From a virus: a stretch of DNA of 64,000 bases. The stretch is taken from positions 1 through 64,000 of IMG/VR virus record IMGVR_UViG_3300036863_000181; one strand, written 5' to 3'. The translations under genes and the position numbers were made by a program. Within the stretch, counting starts at the first letter, position 1; each line of letters opens with the position of its first letter. The notes under the pieces are model-generated. The model had not been told where the DNA came from. It searched no databases and was given only the letters and a program-made list of their open reading frames with translations. Below are positions 4,222 through 63,903 of the stretch, piece by piece.

Positions 4222-4253
4222 AAAAAAAAGCCGGGGCCGATCTCCCCGGCTTT
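4222..4253 (-). terminator. intrinsic terminator, leftward (third of three)
   Basis: Nine-bp perfect stem (4228-4236 with 4244-4252, GC-rich AAGCCGGGG arm) and, on the minus strand, a run of eight T. It stands directly before the SbcC-like gene. Confidence 0.8.
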
Positions 4254-4433: not shown

Positions 4434-4754
4434 TTATTTATGATAAAAACTTTCTGTGTCATCCATCTTCTTTTCTATCTCATCCATTGTCCTGGCAAAA
4501 AACTTTCCCCTCGAAATCCAGTTTAAGAAAACCTGCACGCTGAATAATATGGCAATCGAAAAGTCAACCAAACACCAGCCTATACCAATTGCCCTATGTG
4601 CTATTACCTGAAAACCTGATTTAATTTTATGCAACACGCCGAGAAGCTTTCCGGGTGCCCTCTTATCTATAAGCAACCAGGTGAGCAGCATACAGCCACC
4701 GACAAGGGTCAGCCATATAATGAGAAAAACAAGTATCAGGTTAAGTGCTGCCAT
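4434..4754 (-). CDS. small phage membrane protein
   Basis: 106 residues with a strong N-terminal hydrophobic segment (about 4-30) and a second around residues 60-85 (GIGWCLVDFSIAILF), then a charged C-terminal tail. Probably two transmembrane helices in the inner membrane. No family recognised. It is the last early gene before three stacked terminators. A 30-residue hydrophobic gene (4741-4833) overlaps its start by 14 nt, and both follow the hammerhead ribozyme. A superinfection-exclusion or membrane-modifying role is possible but is only a guess. Confidence 0.6.
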   Translation of the reverse strand: MAALNLILVFLIIWLTLVGGCMLLTWLLIDKRAPGKLLGVLHKIKSGFQVIAHRAIGIGWCLVDFSIAILFSVQVFLNWISRGKFFARTMDEIEKKMDDTESFYHK

Positions 4755-4833
4755 AACATTGTTTAAGTTTGATCACTGCTACAATTGCGCATAGCGCGGC
4801 TATGCAGGAGAGCACGAATAGGATGAGTATCAT
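4741..4833 (-). CDS. 30-residue hydrophobic peptide
   Basis: ATG at 4833, TAA at 4741-4743: begins MILILFVLSC and has one hydrophobic helix of about 21 residues ending in a short basic tail. It overlaps the following membrane gene by 14 nt, so the two may be translationally coupled. Its start codon lies 21 nt after the predicted cleavage site of the hammerhead ribozyme, so the cleaved transcript would carry a very short leader. It is too short for homology judgement, so it may be a leader peptide or a small membrane protein. Confidence 0.4.
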   Translation of the reverse strand: MILILFVLSCIAALCAIVAVIKLKQCYGST

Positions 4834-4848
4834 TGGTAATGGATTTTT

Positions 4849-4918
4849 GGCTAAGACAACCCCACAAGACTTTCACTTGCCGGGAGTGTTTCGGGTATTC
4901 AACCCTCATCAGTTAGCC
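4849..4918 (-). ncRNA. type I hammerhead ribozyme
   Basis: Read on the minus strand. Stem I 5-prime arm GGCUAA (4918-4913), core CUGAUGA (4912-4906), stem II GGGU/ACCC with loop UGAAU (4905-4893), core GAA (4892-4890), then A15.1 at 4889. A long stem III follows (4889-4876 with 4868-4856: ACA/UGU, one C-U mismatch, U-G, CCC/GGG, one bulge, GCAAG/CUUGU) closed by a 7-nt loop. The cleavage triplet is GUC (4857-4855), and the stem I 3-prime arm UUAGCC (4854-4849) is perfectly complementary to GGCUAA. All conserved core nucleotides of the hammerhead are present and stem I is open, hence type I. Predicted self-cleavage is between 4855 and 4854. It lies in a gene-free stretch of the early leftward transcript, between a terminator (5031-5069) and the small gene at 4833. 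Confidence 0.9.
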
Positions 4919-5030: not shown

Positions 5031-5069
5031 AAAAAATGCAGCCGCTGGTACGGATTACCTGACGGCTGC
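5031..5069 (-). terminator. intrinsic terminator after the first early genes
   Basis: Stem GCAGCCG/CGGCTGC (5038-5044 with 5063-5069), 18-nt loop, followed on the minus strand by A and a run of six T (5036-5031). It is located just after the stop of the 38-residue gene, at the end of the Cro-like unit. Confidence 0.65.
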
Positions 5070-16676: not shown

Positions 16677-17057
16677 CTAAACTTTATTGGGCGCTGCTGT
16701 CCCATCACTTATAGTTGTCTTTACATCTATAGCGGTATTTATCTTGTTGCTGATTACCCCGAAAAGTTTGCTGGCAATATCACTACCTGTGTAACCAACA
16801 AAAGCAAAAAACAACTTAATGTAATCAACTACAGCTGGCTTCCATTTTAGTATACTATCAACGAAAAACAGGAATAGTACGATAGTAAGCAAAGACGCAG
16901 TTACAGAAAGCCAATCATTTTTAAAGTAGGTAGCTGCATTGAATTTAACATTGGCAACCCTTGCTTTGTCTTGAAGGGATTTGATTTTCAGAACAGTTTG
17001 CAGCATCATTCCAATGAGTGCTACTATAAAACAGGTTATATACAGAGTTATGGTCAT
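16677..17057 (-). CDS. putative holin
   Basis: 126 residues: N-terminal helix (TLYITCFIVALIGMMLQTVL), amphipathic middle (about 30-50), second helix (LSVTASLLTIVLFLFFVDSI) and a third (YIKLFFAFVGYTGSDI). The overall architecture, with a 'G.tGSD...K' motif near the third segment, resembles holin-like proteins of Bacteroidota phages. It would form inner-membrane lesions letting the endolysin reach the wall. The assignment rests on topology and position. Confidence 0.5.
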   Translation of the reverse strand: MTITLYITCFIVALIGMMLQTVLKIKSLQDKARVANVKFNAATYFKNDWLSVTASLLTIVLFLFFVDSILKWKPAVVDYIKLFFAFVGYTGSDIASKLFGVISNKINTAIDVKTTISDGTAAPNKV

Positions 17058-55323: not shown

Positions 55324-55550
55324 TTTTGCTGCGTTGTAAGCAACTCTTCCAAATTAAGTTGCAGGTTTTTCTTATGAGCCTTCAACATCTTAGCCAGCCG
55401 CTCGTATACCGCGATCTCATGCTTTGCTACTGTATCTTTCTTCTTTCCGATAAAGACCATGGATGGATAATTACGCTTCATCCAGGACAAGCGATCATCA
55501 ACCGTTTTTATCAGGTCAGCATAGGTAATATGATACGGGTCACGGGCCAT
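55320..55550 (-). CDS. 76-residue helical protein
   Basis: Starts MARDPYHITYADLIKTVDDR, then helices with EIAVYERLAKMLKAHKKNL. Fully helical and coiled. Stop overlaps the HTH gene and start touches the helicase stop. Unknown function. Confidence 0.6.
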   Translation of the reverse strand: MARDPYHITYADLIKTVDDRLSWMKRNYPSMVFIGKKKDTVAKHEIAVYERLAKMLKAHKKNLQLNLEELLTTQQK

Positions 55551-57793
55551 TAACTTCGCTTGAATGTTACGTTTGTAAGATGCCGGCCATTGTTCATGAT
55601 CGAGAACAGACCTTTATCGTTCTCTACAATCCGCATGGTTTCGATCTTGCCAAAGAATTTTATATTTCCCCCAAGATCAACAACCCATCCTGATTTCTTT
55701 GATCCATCTTCATAGGTATATGGTCGCATTACCCGGCCAACAATCTGATAATAAAGGGCCAACGACATAGTAGACCGGGCTATGAGCACGCATTCCAGTT
55801 CAGGGTAATCAAAACCTGTAGTGAGCACACCAACGTTGATCACGCATTTTATCTTGCCACACTTGAACTTTTTGAGAATATCATCCCGAACATCTGCAGG
55901 TGTTTCACCAGTCAGAACAACTGAACCTGGGACTTTCTTTGCCGTAGAATTAGCCTCTTCAATCAGCGAACAAAAGACCAGCAGATTATTGCGTTTGGCC
56001 AGTAACCGGTTCGCATACTTTGCAGTCAGCGCCGGCATATCAATGGACCGGTAATAACTGCGGAGACTACTTTCTGTAAAGTCTGTACCCGTTGAATTCA
56101 TTTCCAACATCTGCCTGTTGATCGTGTCAAAGCTGAAATATTCGAGCGGCGCCAGGTGACCGGCATTGAACAGCACATCATTCTGAACATAGTAAAGAAC
56201 CTTATTGAATATCTTAGGTCGTGTACGGGTCAGGAATTTGAGCATGGCACCATCAGCATCAGATGTTAAACGGTAAGGCGTAGCAGTAAGTCCCAATACT
56301 TTTGCATGCCCCAGTGTTTTGATAAATGAATGATACATGCCTTCACGCGCGTTCACCAAATGGCAATTGTGAACAATAATGCCGGCAGTAGGTTGTTTTT
56401 TGCTTTTATCATATTTGCCAGGACTGACAGTATATGTTTCATTGTCCTCTACCTGAATATTATACACAGGCTCCTTTCCTGCAGACTCTTTGCCAATTAA
56501 AACACATGCTCCCCTTTGATTGAAATCAGAATTCCATTTATAGCTCCCGGCAAGGTGTTTAACTGAATCAATGATTTTATAAGACATTGATGGATGCACA
56601 TAAGGAGCAATCATCCTGCACAGATTTTCTACGGCAACCTTTTTGAACTTAATATAATAGTGAGTTCTTTTGCTGATTTTGCTAATGCCAGAACAGACCC
56701 TGCCTGGCACGCCATATGAAGTTAGCATTGCGCGAAGCTTTTCTGTAAGTTCCTTTGATGTAGCCGTTGAATAAAGGGAGCCCCAATTCTGAAGCTTAGC
56801 CAAATGACCGTCATCCATCCATGCAATAGCCAACATCCGCAGGTTAAGGTTTTCGATTATACTGCCAATAGCACATTTATCATCTTCCATAAAAACAACC
56901 TTGGAAGAAAACGCATATGCGTTCTTGCCTGCAAAGCCATTTTTTAAAACCAACCGTGGCTTTTGCTTCAGCATGTCGGCCTTCCACATAAGATATTCCT
57001 TCTGATCTGTTCCCTGGATAAACCTAAACCGATTAATATTCTTTATCAACCTTGTTTTATCCAATGAACCGTCACCCAGGAGGCTGCCTAAGAGCAGACT
57101 TCTTTGGTCGCTGCTTGGAATAGGCGCATAGGTGCCGGTTGGGCACGATGACAAAATGCAATCTCCAATTTGCAGGTCATGGGCAGTTTTCCAGCCATTA
57201 CTGGTTAAGAATGGATGGCCAGATGTGCAGCAGACAGATACATTTTTGCTAAAATGTAGCCTCAGTATTTCCTTTTCTCCGGTGCATTTTCCGGTGATAA
57301 CACGCTTCAACTCCATAGCATTCGTTTCCGAATTATAGCTCAACACCCGGGGAACTGATTTGCCGGCATTTATCAATTTCACCAGGTAACCTATTCTAAG
57401 CTTGCCTTTCTCTGTACTAATGAAGGTGTCATAAGGGAAGCACTCATCGACAATAATGTTCTGAAACTCCTTGAACAAATGCGGCTTCTTTGCTACACTA
57501 CCAATGGTACAAAAGGTGATGTCATCGATATACTTCATGCCGGCTGAAGCACTATATATGCCTGCACGGTAGCCGTAAGAAAGGAACTTGGCAAAGTTCT
57601 GTGCCAGTATTTCTTTCGAAGGTTGGAAAACCACCGTCTTTCCTTTCAGGTTCATGGCCGTATTGGCAATGACCACGCTCTTACCGCTTCCGGTTGGAAG
57701 GATCTCTATTCCATTTATCTTTTTCTTATTCTGGAAAAAGTCGATATTGGCGCTTATCGCATCTACCTGATATGGTCGCGGTGTGAAATTCAT
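55550..57793 (-). CDS. SF2 DEAD/DEAH-type helicase with intein in the DECH box
   Basis: 747 residues as encoded, 388 after splicing. Motif I LPTGSGKS (32-39), motif Ia VVFQPSKEILAQN, motif II VDE/CH split by the intein (the spliced DECH), motif III LTATPYRL, and motif VI YYQIVGRVMRPYTYEDG. The C-terminal exteins complete a RecA-type helicase core. Phage UvsW/RecG-like helicases of this size remodel forks. It precedes the 57790-58458 gene product and overlaps it by 4 nt. Confidence 0.9.
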   Translation of the reverse strand: MNFTPRPYQVDAISANIDFFQNKKKINGIEILPTGSGKSVVIANTAMNLKGKTVVFQPSKEILAQNFAKFLSYGYRAGIYSASAGMKYIDDITFCTIGSVAKKPHLFKEFQNIIVDECFPYDTFISTEKGKLRIGYLVKLINAGKSVPRVLSYNSETNAMELKRVITGKCTGEKEILRLHFSKNVSVCCTSGHPFLTSNGWKTAHDLQIGDCILSSCPTGTYAPIPSSDQRSLLLGSLLGDGSLDKTRLIKNINRFRFIQGTDQKEYLMWKADMLKQKPRLVLKNGFAGKNAYAFSSKVVFMEDDKCAIGSIIENLNLRMLAIAWMDDGHLAKLQNWGSLYSTATSKELTEKLRAMLTSYGVPGRVCSGISKISKRTHYYIKFKKVAVENLCRMIAPYVHPSMSYKIIDSVKHLAGSYKWNSDFNQRGACVLIGKESAGKEPVYNIQVEDNETYTVSPGKYDKSKKQPTAGIIVHNCHLVNAREGMYHSFIKTLGHAKVLGLTATPYRLTSDADGAMLKFLTRTRPKIFNKVLYYVQNDVLFNAGHLAPLEYFSFDTINRQMLEMNSTGTDFTESSLRSYYRSIDMPALTAKYANRLLAKRNNLLVFCSLIEEANSTAKKVPGSVVLTGETPADVRDDILKKFKCGKIKCVINVGVLTTGFDYPELECVLIARSTMSLALYYQIVGRVMRPYTYEDGSKKSGWVVDLGGNIKFFGKIETMRIVENDKGLFSIMNNGRHLTNVTFKRS
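56366..57442 (-). other. intein with LAGLIDADG homing endonuclease domain
   Basis: 359 residues (118-476 of the encoded helicase). Begins with Cys (CFPYDTFISTEKG) after VDE and ends GIIVHN followed by Cys+1 (CHL). Block B is CTSGHPFLTSNGW with the conserved His. Two LAGLIDADG-type helices are LLLGSLLGDGS and LAIAWMDDG. Block F is VYNIQVEDNETYTV. All splicing blocks look intact, so both protein splicing and homing are likely functional. Confidence 0.92.
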
Positions 57794-59544: not shown

Positions 59545-61367
59545 GCCACGTTAGTTTTATAGTCAATAATTTTCATTGCCAGTGATTCAATCCACTTCTT
59601 TACTACCAATGGCACCACGCTATTACCGATGAACTTTTTCTGATCAGTCTGGTTGCCTTCCAGTTTGTAGCCTGCAGGGAAACCCTGGATAGATAGCAGT
59701 TCATGCACACGTAGCATTCGCATTTTTATATCTACCAATTCATATACAGCCATGAACTGTTTTATCTTGATCATAATATCGCTGTCCCCTTCGTAAACTT
59801 CTATTGCAACACGGCCAGATTCAACCTGAACAAAGTATAATGGTGCTTTGTCCTGTCGCGCTACGATCACACAACAGGGCTCTTCGACGCTACCAGGGTT
59901 GCCATACCATGATGGATTTACCAGGTAATGATGTTTCCGATTGGCTGTAATCGTAGGAGCTGGCTGATCCACAGACACAGGCTTATTATCAAAGTTGGTA
60001 GGCATAATAAATGGATCGCACTGCACCAGGTTCATTTTTGGATATGGAAGGATGGCGCCAGCCGGCTGCTCAACTGACTGATGATTATGATCTCCGCTAT
60101 TATGCTGTTTATCGATAAAGAATTGCGGTTGAACAAGCCCAAGCCTGTCATTACAAGGAACCACAGGCGCCGGTTCATCTACTCCTCGGTTAAGGCTTTT
60201 GCCATTATAAATCGTAAGGAATTCAGGACTAACTAAAGCTGTCCTTGCCTTTGTCGGAATGGTTGGAGCCGGGCTTTCTATCGAAGAAAGCTGTCCACCA
60301 GTACCGTAATAATGAGTAAGGAATTTTGCCTGCGCTAAATACAATCTGTTCTGTGTTGAAATAACGGGTGATGGATCATCGACCGAAGGAGGATTATAAT
60401 TACCTGCTTTGTCGCGTGAATTGTATTTGACAAGAAATTCTGCCTGTACCAGAGATTGATTACCGGCCGTCGCTATGGTACCAGCAGGTCCGTCAACCGG
60501 AATTACTTTTCCATCAGGTTTGCCACTGAAATATTTTGCAATGAAAGCCTTATCACCTTTGGCTACATATTTTATTAGGCCGGCATAGATCCTTTCCAAT
60601 GTTTTATCGGAAAGTGCTTTATCACGGGTGAAAATGCTTTGCCCCTCATCCTTGAAATCAAGAACCTCTTTGACCGGCATCCACTTTTTAAGATCGCCGT
60701 ACATTGAAAATGATGAAGGTTTTTTGGCATGCGTAGGCTGTGGAAAACAGATAGGAAGCCATGGCCTGGCAAATATTCCGAATAACCGGTTACGGCTGGT
60801 ATATGCACCGTAATTTGCGCTGTTGAGTTCCGTCCATTCATCGACATATCCATGACCGCAGATTAATTTTCTCCACCTCATCCAGTCCTGCCCATTCTTT
60901 TTGCTCACCGGTTTCCCGTTCTCATCGAGAGGCCCCCAGCTCATAAACTCAACAACGTTTTCAATCTTTACATAATCACAATTCAATGCTACTATATACC
61001 TGTCAAGATGATCAGCCAGCGTCCTGCTATCAGCATCGCGTGGTAACCCACCCTTAGCCTTAGAAAAATTTGTACATTCCAAACTAGCCCATAATATGAC
61101 CTTCGCATTGGGATATTTGGTCCTGTAAAAGTCTACCAGCTTCACCAGTTCGGTTAAATCTAGTGTCCTTATATCCTCTTCAAAATGTTTTACCTCCGGA
61201 TGATTAGCCCAATGGCTTTTTATTGCAATAGGATCATGATTAACACAGGCAATGACTTTTACGATAGCGTTGCCATCAAGTTCCGCCTGAACAAATCCGC
61301 AGGTGGTGCCACCAGCGCCGCAAAAAAGGTCAATTACAAGGAATAAAGGGTCTTTCATCTTATACAT
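59541..61367 (-). CDS. DNA cytosine-5 methyltransferase with tandem repeats in the target region
   Basis: 608 residues. Motif I DLFCGAGGTT, motif IV ASLECTNFS (Cys99 nucleophile, preceding P replaced by E), motif VI KIENVVEF, motif VIII NYGAYTSRNRLFG, and motifs IX/X RMLRVHELLSIQGFP and KFIGNSVVP. Between VIII and IX, residues about 275-530 are seven repeats of the pattern V-D-x-P-A-P-x-I-x-T....R..LV (VDGPAGTIAT, VDDPSPVIST, IESPAPTIPT, VDEPAPVVPC, VEQPAGAILP, VDQPAPTITA, VEEPCCVIVA). The usual target-recognition zone is thus expanded. It methylates phage DNA, probably to resist restriction. Overlaps its neighbours by 4 to 8 nt. Confidence 0.9.
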   Translation of the reverse strand: MYKMKDPLFLVIDLFCGAGGTTCGFVQAELDGNAIVKVIACVNHDPIAIKSHWANHPEVKHFEEDIRTLDLTELVKLVDFYRTKYPNAKVILWASLECTNFSKAKGGLPRDADSRTLADHLDRYIVALNCDYVKIENVVEFMSWGPLDENGKPVSKKNGQDWMRWRKLICGHGYVDEWTELNSANYGAYTSRNRLFGIFARPWLPICFPQPTHAKKPSSFSMYGDLKKWMPVKEVLDFKDEGQSIFTRDKALSDKTLERIYAGLIKYVAKGDKAFIAKYFSGKPDGKVIPVDGPAGTIATAGNQSLVQAEFLVKYNSRDKAGNYNPPSVDDPSPVISTQNRLYLAQAKFLTHYYGTGGQLSSIESPAPTIPTKARTALVSPEFLTIYNGKSLNRGVDEPAPVVPCNDRLGLVQPQFFIDKQHNSGDHNHQSVEQPAGAILPYPKMNLVQCDPFIMPTNFDNKPVSVDQPAPTITANRKHHYLVNPSWYGNPGSVEEPCCVIVARQDKAPLYFVQVESGRVAIEVYEGDSDIMIKIKQFMAVYELVDIKMRMLRVHELLSIQGFPAGYKLEGNQTDQKKFIGNSVVPLVVKKWIESLAMKIIDYKTNVA

Positions 61368-63903
61368 TTACCAGGTCAAATAATGTTGGTAGCTTTTTGT
61401 TATGTTCAGCTGCTTTACAATAAGCTGCTCCGTCCAAAAAATATTGATGATTAAGTTCTATGCCTATACCATATCTGCCCTGAAGAATCGCCTCTACCGG
61501 GACGGTCATCAACCCTCCAAATGGATCAAGCACCCTATCACCGGGATTTGACATCTGTTTAATAACCCGCTGCGCCAATTCTATCTGCATAGGGCACAAA
61601 TGAAGTTCCTTACCTTTTGCATGTTGTGAACCATTAAGCGTTCGCATGCGAGTTATATCGGTCCATACCTCATCGGACCAGCTCTGTGGTTGCAGTAGCA
61701 TGAAGGTTGTTGGAAGCTTACCCATGGCCATGAGTGTATCACCGATCTCAACATGATACTCGAAATCATAAATACAGTTCAGCGAGTAATCACGGAAGAA
61801 TTTGAATATTTGATTGTGATCCAGCTTCGCAATCTCTTCCGGCATCAAAGGCCTATTGCCAGATGCCCTGGTAAATCCATGAGCATCTACCTGCCATTTT
61901 GAAAGGGAGTAATCTTCTTTAGATTTTGTGACAGGAACATCTGCATAACCATTTGACGGATCAGTAACTGGCTTGCGGAATAACAAAAGATATTCTGGCA
62001 TACCCACTCCCATTTTGCTACCGTCTTTACATTGTTCAGTCCAACCTAACCGATATGTTTGGTTATTCTCCCGCACTACATCAGTCACAATTGTTTTCAT
62101 ACCGATATAGGCGAACCCATGTTTAATGTAGTGATCCATTACATGCTTATGGAATGGATATACTGTTTGAAAGCCGAGACCCGTCATTCCTCCAGGTACA
62201 ATCCTGTCCTTTACATGAATGGCTGCAATCCTGCCAGGCATGAGCGATCGGTAAAGCTCAGGGGTGAGGTAATCCATTTGCCCAAAAAACTCATCGTTAT
62301 TTTCGGAGTGACCAAAATCAGAATAATTTGGTGAGTATTCATACTGCGTAGAAAATGGAATGGAAGTAAGTATTAGCCCAACACTATTATCTTGTAAGTT
62401 CCGGCTTTCAATTACGGAATCATTATTGATAAGGTGATAGTTATTGCCGACAATGGTTATTCGATCAACGCCAAAACCGCGCGTCAGGGCCTTCGCCATT
62501 TCTCCATGGCTTAAACCAAACTCTTTAATTAGGTCGGTCATTATTTTAACTTTTTTATTGTGCTGTGACCATTTTCTTTCCAAATTTTTTCTTACCTGTC
62601 GCTCTGCTTCTGTGTAAATAAGATCAACCCGTACACGATTTTGTTGGAGAAAACGTTGCAAACGCATTACGCTTTGTATGAAGTCATTGAACTTAAAACC
62701 AATGCCTAGGTATATTGCCCAGGAACAGTATCGTTGCAAGTTGGTACCTGAACCGATCATTACAGGCTTACCGCCCAGTTCCGGAATTCGGCCATAAGAG
62801 AAATCGGCAATAATCTTTTCCCGTTCCTCTAAATCCATGGTACCATAAACAGTTGCGCAATCAGGGAGCGCCTTTTCAATAGCATGCCTTTCCGCTTCGA
62901 GGTCATGCCAGATTATCCGGTGAGCAGAAGGATCTTCCTTCCGGAGTTCAAGCATCTTCGCTATTCGCGAAGGAAGGCTTTCACGTTTTTCCCTGGCAGC
63001 ATCAACCAGGCCGACGGCCGTATTTTTGAATAACCTTTTTTGACCGTTCTTTTCAAAGCCGGCTGACGAGTGATCGCTCGGCAATTCGTGCCAGTGGATA
63101 TCTAATTCGGGAAGAACATAACCTTCATCGTCTGAAGGATCACCGGTAATATCAGAAGGGAGGGAAATAAATAATGCCCATGAACTAACCCACATCCAAA
63201 ATTCTTCTTCCTTGTGTTTATGCAAAGTGAGTTTGTCAGCCTGTGTACTATCACGTTTGAAGAATCGGGTTTTAGCTTGGCTAACGTCCATTATCCCAAG
63301 AAAGTCGGCGTAAGCCAGCAGCTCAATATGATCATTGGGATCAGGCGTAGCAGTGGCTATAAAACGATATGGAACACACTGAGTACTGCGCCGGTTTCCA
63401 TTGGGACCACCATCCCCTGTAAATAGCCGCATGAATTCGCGGAATGTTTTGCTACTTCCAAATCCACGTAGAACAGATGCCTCATCCAAAGATGCTGCCT
63501 GGAATAATCGCGGGTCCAGTTTAAGATCACGTACGGTTTCATAATTTGTAAGATAAATACCCGTTTCACCAGCTTCTTCAATTGAGCGAATGAATTTTGG
63601 TGCAGTATCCCAGCCAAGAACGTTTTTCGAATCGTTTATAAATTCCTGACGCACACCCAGAGGACAGATGATCAATCCCCGGCCTCCCGTTTTTGTAAGA
63701 ATAATGCGAAGTGTTTCAAGTTGACAAACGGTTTTATGAAGGCCAAAAGCGGCAAAACATGCTCTCCTGCCTCCTTCAACCATCCATTTTACCATCAGCT
63801 TATTGTGCGGTTTCAATGCAGGATTGACCTCTGAAATATTCAGGCTAAAACCGGTTGAGCCGGCTATGCGTATTTTAGATTTTAAAAAGTCCTGGTATTC
63901 CAT
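61360..63903 (-). CDS. Snf2-like helicase fused to DNA methyltransferase
   Basis: 847 residues. The N-terminal 500 residues are a Snf2/SF2 helicase: motif I FAAFGLHKTVCQLE (degenerate Walker A with GLHKT), motif II SLDEASVLRG, motif III ATATPDPN, motif VI QSVMRLQRFLQQ. The C-terminal 350 residues are an N4/N6-type methyltransferase: TSIPFSTQYEY (motif IV region, SIPF instead of NPPY/SPPY), VDAHGFTRASGNR, and motif I LDPFGGLMTVPVEAI ending GIGIELN. The arrangement IV...I is circularly permuted. I recognise this helicase-methyltransferase arrangement from many phages. Possibly modifies DNA during replication. Confidence 0.85.
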   Translation of the reverse strand: MEYQDFLKSKIRIAGSTGFSLNISEVNPALKPHNKLMVKWMVEGGRRACFAAFGLHKTVCQLETLRIILTKTGGRGLIICPLGVRQEFINDSKNVLGWDTAPKFIRSIEEAGETGIYLTNYETVRDLKLDPRLFQAASLDEASVLRGFGSSKTFREFMRLFTGDGGPNGNRRSTQCVPYRFIATATPDPNDHIELLAYADFLGIMDVSQAKTRFFKRDSTQADKLTLHKHKEEEFWMWVSSWALFISLPSDITGDPSDDEGYVLPELDIHWHELPSDHSSAGFEKNGQKRLFKNTAVGLVDAAREKRESLPSRIAKMLELRKEDPSAHRIIWHDLEAERHAIEKALPDCATVYGTMDLEEREKIIADFSYGRIPELGGKPVMIGSGTNLQRYCSWAIYLGIGFKFNDFIQSVMRLQRFLQQNRVRVDLIYTEAERQVRKNLERKWSQHNKKVKIMTDLIKEFGLSHGEMAKALTRGFGVDRITIVGNNYHLINNDSVIESRNLQDNSVGLILTSIPFSTQYEYSPNYSDFGHSENNDEFFGQMDYLTPELYRSLMPGRIAAIHVKDRIVPGGMTGLGFQTVYPFHKHVMDHYIKHGFAYIGMKTIVTDVVRENNQTYRLGWTEQCKDGSKMGVGMPEYLLLFRKPVTDPSNGYADVPVTKSKEDYSLSKWQVDAHGFTRASGNRPLMPEEIAKLDHNQIFKFFRDYSLNCIYDFEYHVEIGDTLMAMGKLPTTFMLLQPQSWSDEVWTDITRMRTLNGSQHAKGKELHLCPMQIELAQRVIKQMSNPGDRVLDPFGGLMTVPVEAILQGRYGIGIELNHQYFLDGAAYCKAAEHNKKLPTLFDLVNV

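Follow-up and report, generated by a model that had tools for sequence, protein, structure and literature searches.

The window, the 64,000-nucleotide stretch of virus record IMGVR_UViG_3300036863_000181 analysed here, holds in one of its intergenic gaps a short segment that reads as a self-cleaving RNA. This locus raises two questions: whether the segment is a hammerhead ribozyme, and what such an RNA would do in front of a small phage gene. An initial sequence-only reading had proposed a type I hammerhead with its core elements in order, and all of the parts it named are present on the minus strand (Table 1).

Sequence and surroundings of the window element

Read from 4918 to 4849, the minus strand gives GGCUAA CUGAUGA GGGU UGAAU ACCC GAA A-CACUCCC...GGGGUU-GUC UUAGCC. 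The hammerhead core is complete (C3 U4 G5 A6 N7 G8 A9 and G12 A13 A14), and A15.1-U16.1 and C15.2-G16.2 are both intact. GGCUAA (4918-4913) pairs with UUAGCC (4854-4849) at six of six positions, which bears out the perfect complementarity claimed for stem I, while stem II is formed by GGGU (4905-4902) and ACCC (4896-4893). With stem I open and stems II and III closed by loops, the topology is that of type I. The cleavage triplet is GUC, of the NUH type (position 17 not G), with C17 at 4855. In free folding, the centroid structure contains stem I, stem II, and the distal portion of stem III, and the full hammerhead lies 2.0 kcal/mol above the minimum free energy.

Table 1. Features of the ribozyme locus (window coordinates).
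Feature	Position	Strand	Basis or remark
Type I hammerhead ribozyme (predicted)	4849..4918	minus	letter-by-letter reading; 60.8 bits, E 2.6e-15 (window copy is a training sequence of the model)
Stem I 5' strand, GGCUAA	4913..4918	minus	UAA at 4915-4913, as in many relatives
Catalytic core C3-A9, CUGAUGA	4906..4912	minus	sequence reading; core of relatives
Stem II (4 bp) and loop UGAAU	4893..4905	minus	matches family loop UNARU
Catalytic core G12-A13-A14 (GAA)	4890..4892	minus	sequence reading; core of relatives
Stem III hairpin	4856..4889	minus	12 pairs, one C/U mismatch, one bulged G, 7-nt loop
Predicted cleavage site 4855/4854, after C17 of GUC	4854..4855	minus	inferred from hammerhead mechanism
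Stem I 3' strand, UUAGCC	4849..4854	minus	predicted 5' end of released downstream mRNA
21-nt leader on downstream mRNA after predicted cut	4834..4854	minus	sequence reading
Hydrophobic 30-aa ORF directly downstream of ribozyme	4741..4833	minus	ORF reading
106-aa ORF, hydrophobic N-terminal region, overlapping end of 30-aa ORF	4434..4754	minus	
Terminator-like hairpin past 106-aa ORF, closing the 30-aa/106-aa unit	4227..4253	minus	
Possible 15-codon ORF (MAIGEERELNKAVLG) ending at stem I UAA	4913..4960	minus	may be chance
Terminator-like hairpin and U tract upstream of unit	5031..5069	minus	hairpin 5069-5038

The element had also been placed between a terminator and a small gene starting 21 nt past the cut, and both neighbors were found: upstream is a terminator-like hairpin at 5069-5038 (-19.0 kcal/mol, then AUUUUUU), and the ATG at 4833-4831 lies 21 nt past the predicted cut and 15 nt past stem I, a spacing typical of the family described below. 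The upstream side of the ribozyme is either non-coding or taken up by the doubtful 15-codon ORF. A family search with the 106-aa ORF gave no match, and the hairpin at 4253-4227 is followed by SbcC-like, RecT-like, and hydrolase genes. With a terminator-like hairpin upstream and no identified promoter, we assume that transcription runs through the element. The whole 65,950-base record contains one ribozyme copy. A synteny search for conservation at the same locus found no close relative of the window phage; it returned a single contig that encodes a related SbcC-like protein (34 per cent identity) and a single short stretch matching the 106-aa ORF, neither with a ribozyme.

Other features of the window were recorded along the way. 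The minus strand carries four consecutive hairpins (4429-4227), each followed by T-rich sequence, in the stretch that separates the 106-aa ORF from the SbcC-like gene. A DNA helicase ORF at 55550-57793 has an internal match to the LAGLIDADG homing endonuclease family, possibly an intein, and an 847-aa ORF at 61360-63903 contains a DNA methylase domain and weakly matches a helicase C-terminal domain.

A descriptor covering all three hammerhead types matched this element alone in the window. In 100 Markov-simulated windows the same descriptor gave a single type II match and none of type I, and the expected count of the pattern CTGATGAGGN{5,16}CCGAAAC was 0.00. A second covariance model match in the window (44194-44106, 11.8 bits, E about 1) was rejected, as it does not have the CUGAUGA core. 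Rfam 15 at the gathering score gave no match to the window element; its best sub-threshold hammerhead was RAGATH-1-hammerhead (15.8 bits, cutoff 56.3), and it was under the gathering cutoff in all other Rfam hammerhead families. A score below cutoff together with a mispaired stem I had been named beforehand as grounds for abandoning the call: the score is indeed below cutoff, but stem I is not mispaired. Those grounds thus apply only by half: all six stem I pairs form, and the whole family goes unrecognised by Rfam. At the gathering score there were no Rfam matches in 20 loci holding relatives, and at E 0.1 the sole match in eight such loci was an unrelated SymR-like hit. A widespread phage ribozyme family escapes the standard Rfam models. 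(A sub-threshold SymR antitoxin-like RNA, 41.0 bits against a cutoff of 61, was seen in virus contig L030 at 5685-5614.)

Relatives and conservation of the core

BLAST against phages returned a 36-nt match in Flavobacterium phages of the genus Elemovirus, which is part of a complete type I hammerhead; these cultured phages carry members of the family. The strict pattern AACTGATGAGGN{5,14}CCGAAACN{15,45}GTCTT identified 84 stretches in virus contigs. Against 84,980 species genomes, it picked out six contigs, of which two (L091 and L094) look real from their alignments and scores, so the family is found mostly in virus contigs. A covariance model (R1) was built on an alignment of 55 copies, the window copy among them, and in the first set it found 187 copies at 86 loci. 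A second, looser pattern, with N7 free and A, C, or T allowed at position 17, gave at least 120 stretches, and the model found at least 79 and at least 80 copies in the loci of this pattern. In total, at least 289 unique elements were analysed (139 from the first set and at least 150 from the second), with up to 11 copies per whole record. Copies within and between loci share descent, so family counts are not counts of independent events.

Lower-scoring members (32-50 bits) occur in Pelagibacter phages before a MarR-like gene, without the family spacing to an annotated gene. These same-family hammerheads in cultured Pelagibacter phages (L096 2497-2557, L097 2948-3008, L098 2658-2700, and L099 2431-2473) lie upstream of the MarR-like gene and an integrase, with an ATG directly after stem I where no gene is annotated.

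In the 55-copy alignment, 98.7 per cent of cells are paired, compared to 71.7 per cent after shuffling and 26-44 per cent after sliding, and there are 247 double changes compared to 74 in the shuffles. All three stems covary. Stem I is 100 per cent paired in the 55 relatives, even though the pattern had set only its two core-proximal pairs. Across the extracted elements (strict-pattern stretches and reference loci), stem I has at least six continuous pairs in every case but one, which has five.

Because the pattern itself fixed the core, the test for catalysis was limited to copies that it did not require. Among 60 unique copies found by the model only, C3, U4, G5, A6, G8, A9, G12, A13, A14, A15.1, and U16.1 were each present in 60 of 60, a result that is not wholly independent since the model itself favours consensus letters. 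The informative contrast is between N7 and its neighbors: N7, a known free position of the core, was T in 42 copies, C in 11, A in 6, and G in 1. Catalysis requires a position 17 other than G, and this position was C in 48 copies and A in 12, never G or T. Among the matches listed for the second set, 149 of 150 copies have CTGAnGA, with N7 as T in 75, C in 54, A in 18, and G in 3, and position 17 as C in 119 and A in 31. Judged by these letters, catalysis appears to be a selected property of the family. The relatives therefore make the prediction that the window element is a canonical type I hammerhead strongly supported, through the model E-value, the covariation, the invariant core with its free N7, and the lack of G at position 17. 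An A stands directly before stem I in about 96 per cent of copies and directly after it in about 91 per cent (for the second set, among the matches listed). Together with the conserved loop UNARU, these flanking As suggest a possible tertiary contact between the stem I and loop II regions.

Placement between genes and proposed role

The relatives form a large family in which stop and start codons are phased, and the sequence-only reading had not noticed that the element belongs to it. A start codon lies 10-40 nt past stem I in 251 of 282 copies, with a median distance of 17 nt (second set among the matches listed). Counting only ATGs that begin an ORF of 40 aa or more, this was the case for 124 of 136 copies in the first set, compared to 16 per cent at random same-strand positions, and for 127 of 146 among the matches listed in the second. 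The median of 17 nt holds in both sets and corresponds to 23 nt past the predicted cut. On the other side, 91 of 135 copies of the first set (random 9 per cent) and, among the matches listed, 102 of 145 of the second have an upstream stop codon in the interval from -30 to +13 relative to stem I. The commonest such stop is the UAA in stem I (positions 4-6), followed by the UGA of CUGA. Leaders are 84 per cent A+T, compared to 62 per cent overall, and a Shine-Dalgarno-like string is present in 19 of 126. At multi-copy loci, all copies are on one strand in 59 of 59 cases (among the matches listed). The downstream proteins fall into about 200 unrelated clusters (second set among the matches listed); three of ten tested match PHROG families, each of unknown function. 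The clearest layout comes from a contig binned as Aliivibrio, where 5.8 kb contain nine ribozymes; an ORF begins 14-28 nt after each of them, and some ORFs end at or beside the following ribozyme.

Hundreds of relatives between a stop codon and the next start codon suggest that phages cut long messages into single-gene pieces without a protein. We consider it likely that the element is an intercistronic self-cleaving module, a cis-acting type I hammerhead that splits phage polycistronic RNA. In the window, the ribozyme would work in cis within the leftward transcript: stems II, III, and I would fold behind the passing RNA polymerase, and the RNA would cut itself after the C at 4855. In the family as a whole, where the module lies between two reading frames, the upstream gene stops in or beside stem I, and its RNA would keep a hairpin 3' end with a cyclic phosphate. 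The downstream RNA would begin with a 5'-OH and an A/U-rich leader of about 23 nt, then AUG. Decay that depends on a 5'-monophosphate acts poorly on 5'-OH ends, and 3' exonucleases are hindered by a terminal hairpin; both features would stabilise the RNA pieces. The sequence, structure, conservation, covariation, and position rest on the data above, and self-cleavage itself, its rate and timing, and its effects on mRNA stability or translation are what we infer here. In the window, the outcome would be removal of the leader ahead of the 30-aa/106-aa hydrophobic-protein unit. The position beside a start codon, which recurs throughout the family, supports the mRNA processing that had been proposed for this locus; the timing implied by the word 'early' is conjectural. 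The full stop-ribozyme-start layout is clear in the relatives but not in the window, which has a single copy, a 30-aa downstream ORF, and no convincing upstream gene.

Two further ideas about the start codon were tried. A distal stem I helix hiding it (in the window, AGUGUUA with UGAUACU) was dropped because pairing between the true flanks did not exceed that between swapped ones (10.85 vs 10.95 swapped, sd 0.18, in 139 copies). The calculated accessibility of the start codon rises slightly after cleavage, from 0.61 to 0.66, so a role in releasing a masked start codon is weakly supported.

The least unlikely alternative to simple splitting is a regulated switch, in which a ribosome terminating in stem I blocks or permits folding and so couples upstream translation to release of the downstream mRNA. 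The stop codon is within the element in 49 of 135 copies of the first set and 62 of 145 of the second (among the matches listed), which speaks for a switch, but the window has no convincing upstream gene, and stop placement may reflect compact packing only, since UAA and UGA belong to the motif anyway. It is also unlikely that the family is a selfish or hitch-hiking RNA element, tolerated in intercistronic gaps and cleaving without benefit to the phage. Several copies per genome with differing stem III and the unrelated genes downstream would suit such an element, but no mobilising protein or repeat boundary was seen; the precise stop and start phasing, the single strand, and a core kept in nearly every copy argue for use rather than mere tolerance.

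Circularisation or end-joining, where the fragment between two ribozymes would pair its 5' stem I strand with its own 3' ribozyme to give closed or ligated circles, is quite improbable. In the first set, full stem I cross-pairing is possible for 69 per cent of neighbors compared to 31 per cent between loci, with no such excess for stem II (29 vs 27 per cent), but in the second set, among the matches listed, the stem I excess is small (74 vs 63 per cent) and four pairs are fixed by the pattern. The window element, as a single copy, cannot circularise alone. Finally, the window element might resemble a ribozyme by chance or be the fossil of a dead one, a reading that the Rfam score under cutoff would favour. 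Against it are the near-zero expected count in simulated windows, the covariance model E of 2.6e-15 (for a training sequence), the intact core, the perfect stem I, and the family-typical ATG distance, and this explanation is scarcely credible.

Returning to the splitting of polycistronic RNA, we lean towards a broader version for many phages, with one hammerhead per gene serving as a portable punctuation mark that would turn polycistronic into monocistronic mRNAs without a nuclease. The mark would read, in order, stop codon, self-cut, hairpin-protected 3' end, short A/U-rich leader with a 5'-OH, and start codon. A uniform family at fixed stop and start spacing makes the role of phage hammerheads directly testable, and the cultured Elemovirus phages carry members.

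Comparison with known systems

Hammerheads in prophages and bacteria, sometimes clustered and flanking genes, are described in the available part of Perreault et al. (2011; PMC3088659), which already suggested that long phage RNA is processed into mRNAs the length of a gene or an operon, and where three clusters cleaved in vitro. The window family has the same core and helices and is likewise found in phage genomes. Compared to the description in that part of the paper, it is uniformly type I: stem I is almost always 6 bp long and flanked by an A at both ends, the loop is UNARU, and no distal stem I helix is apparent. A fixed stop and start distance is not described in the same part of the text, and the supplementary alignments may list some members. 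A 2017 review (PMC6155905) counted the role of bacterial and phage hammerheads among the open questions of the field. A search of the open-access literature for phage hammerheads other than those of the 2011 work returned no report of the window family. As far as this literature and Rfam show, the uncatalogued type I family and its stop and start phasing appear new.

Two Rfam families come close in different ways. RF03152 (RAGATH-1-hammerhead) shares the type I topology, a short stem I, and a similar core string with the window element, but the score is 15.8 bits (cutoff 56.3), and its upstream hairpin is only weakly matched. RF00008 (Hammerhead_3) has the same catalytic core but a different open stem, and gave no match at the window locus. 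Flavobacterium phage elemoC carries both a window-family member and a type III-like element (36.3 bits; RF00008 cutoff 48.5) whose end lies 13 nt ahead of a gene; in elemoC_14-1A a window-family member is at record positions 16952-17009. Such second, type III-like hammerheads lie about 13 nt before the next annotated gene in the Flavobacterium elemo phages (L002 916-972, L003 1196-1252), so that a single phage has hammerheads of two types in the intercistronic position.

The early genes of T7 offer a protein-dependent counterpart, in which RNase III sites between genes split polycistronic phage RNA. Both systems would divide RNA between genes, but T7 needs the RNase III of its host, whereas here the RNA would cut itself.
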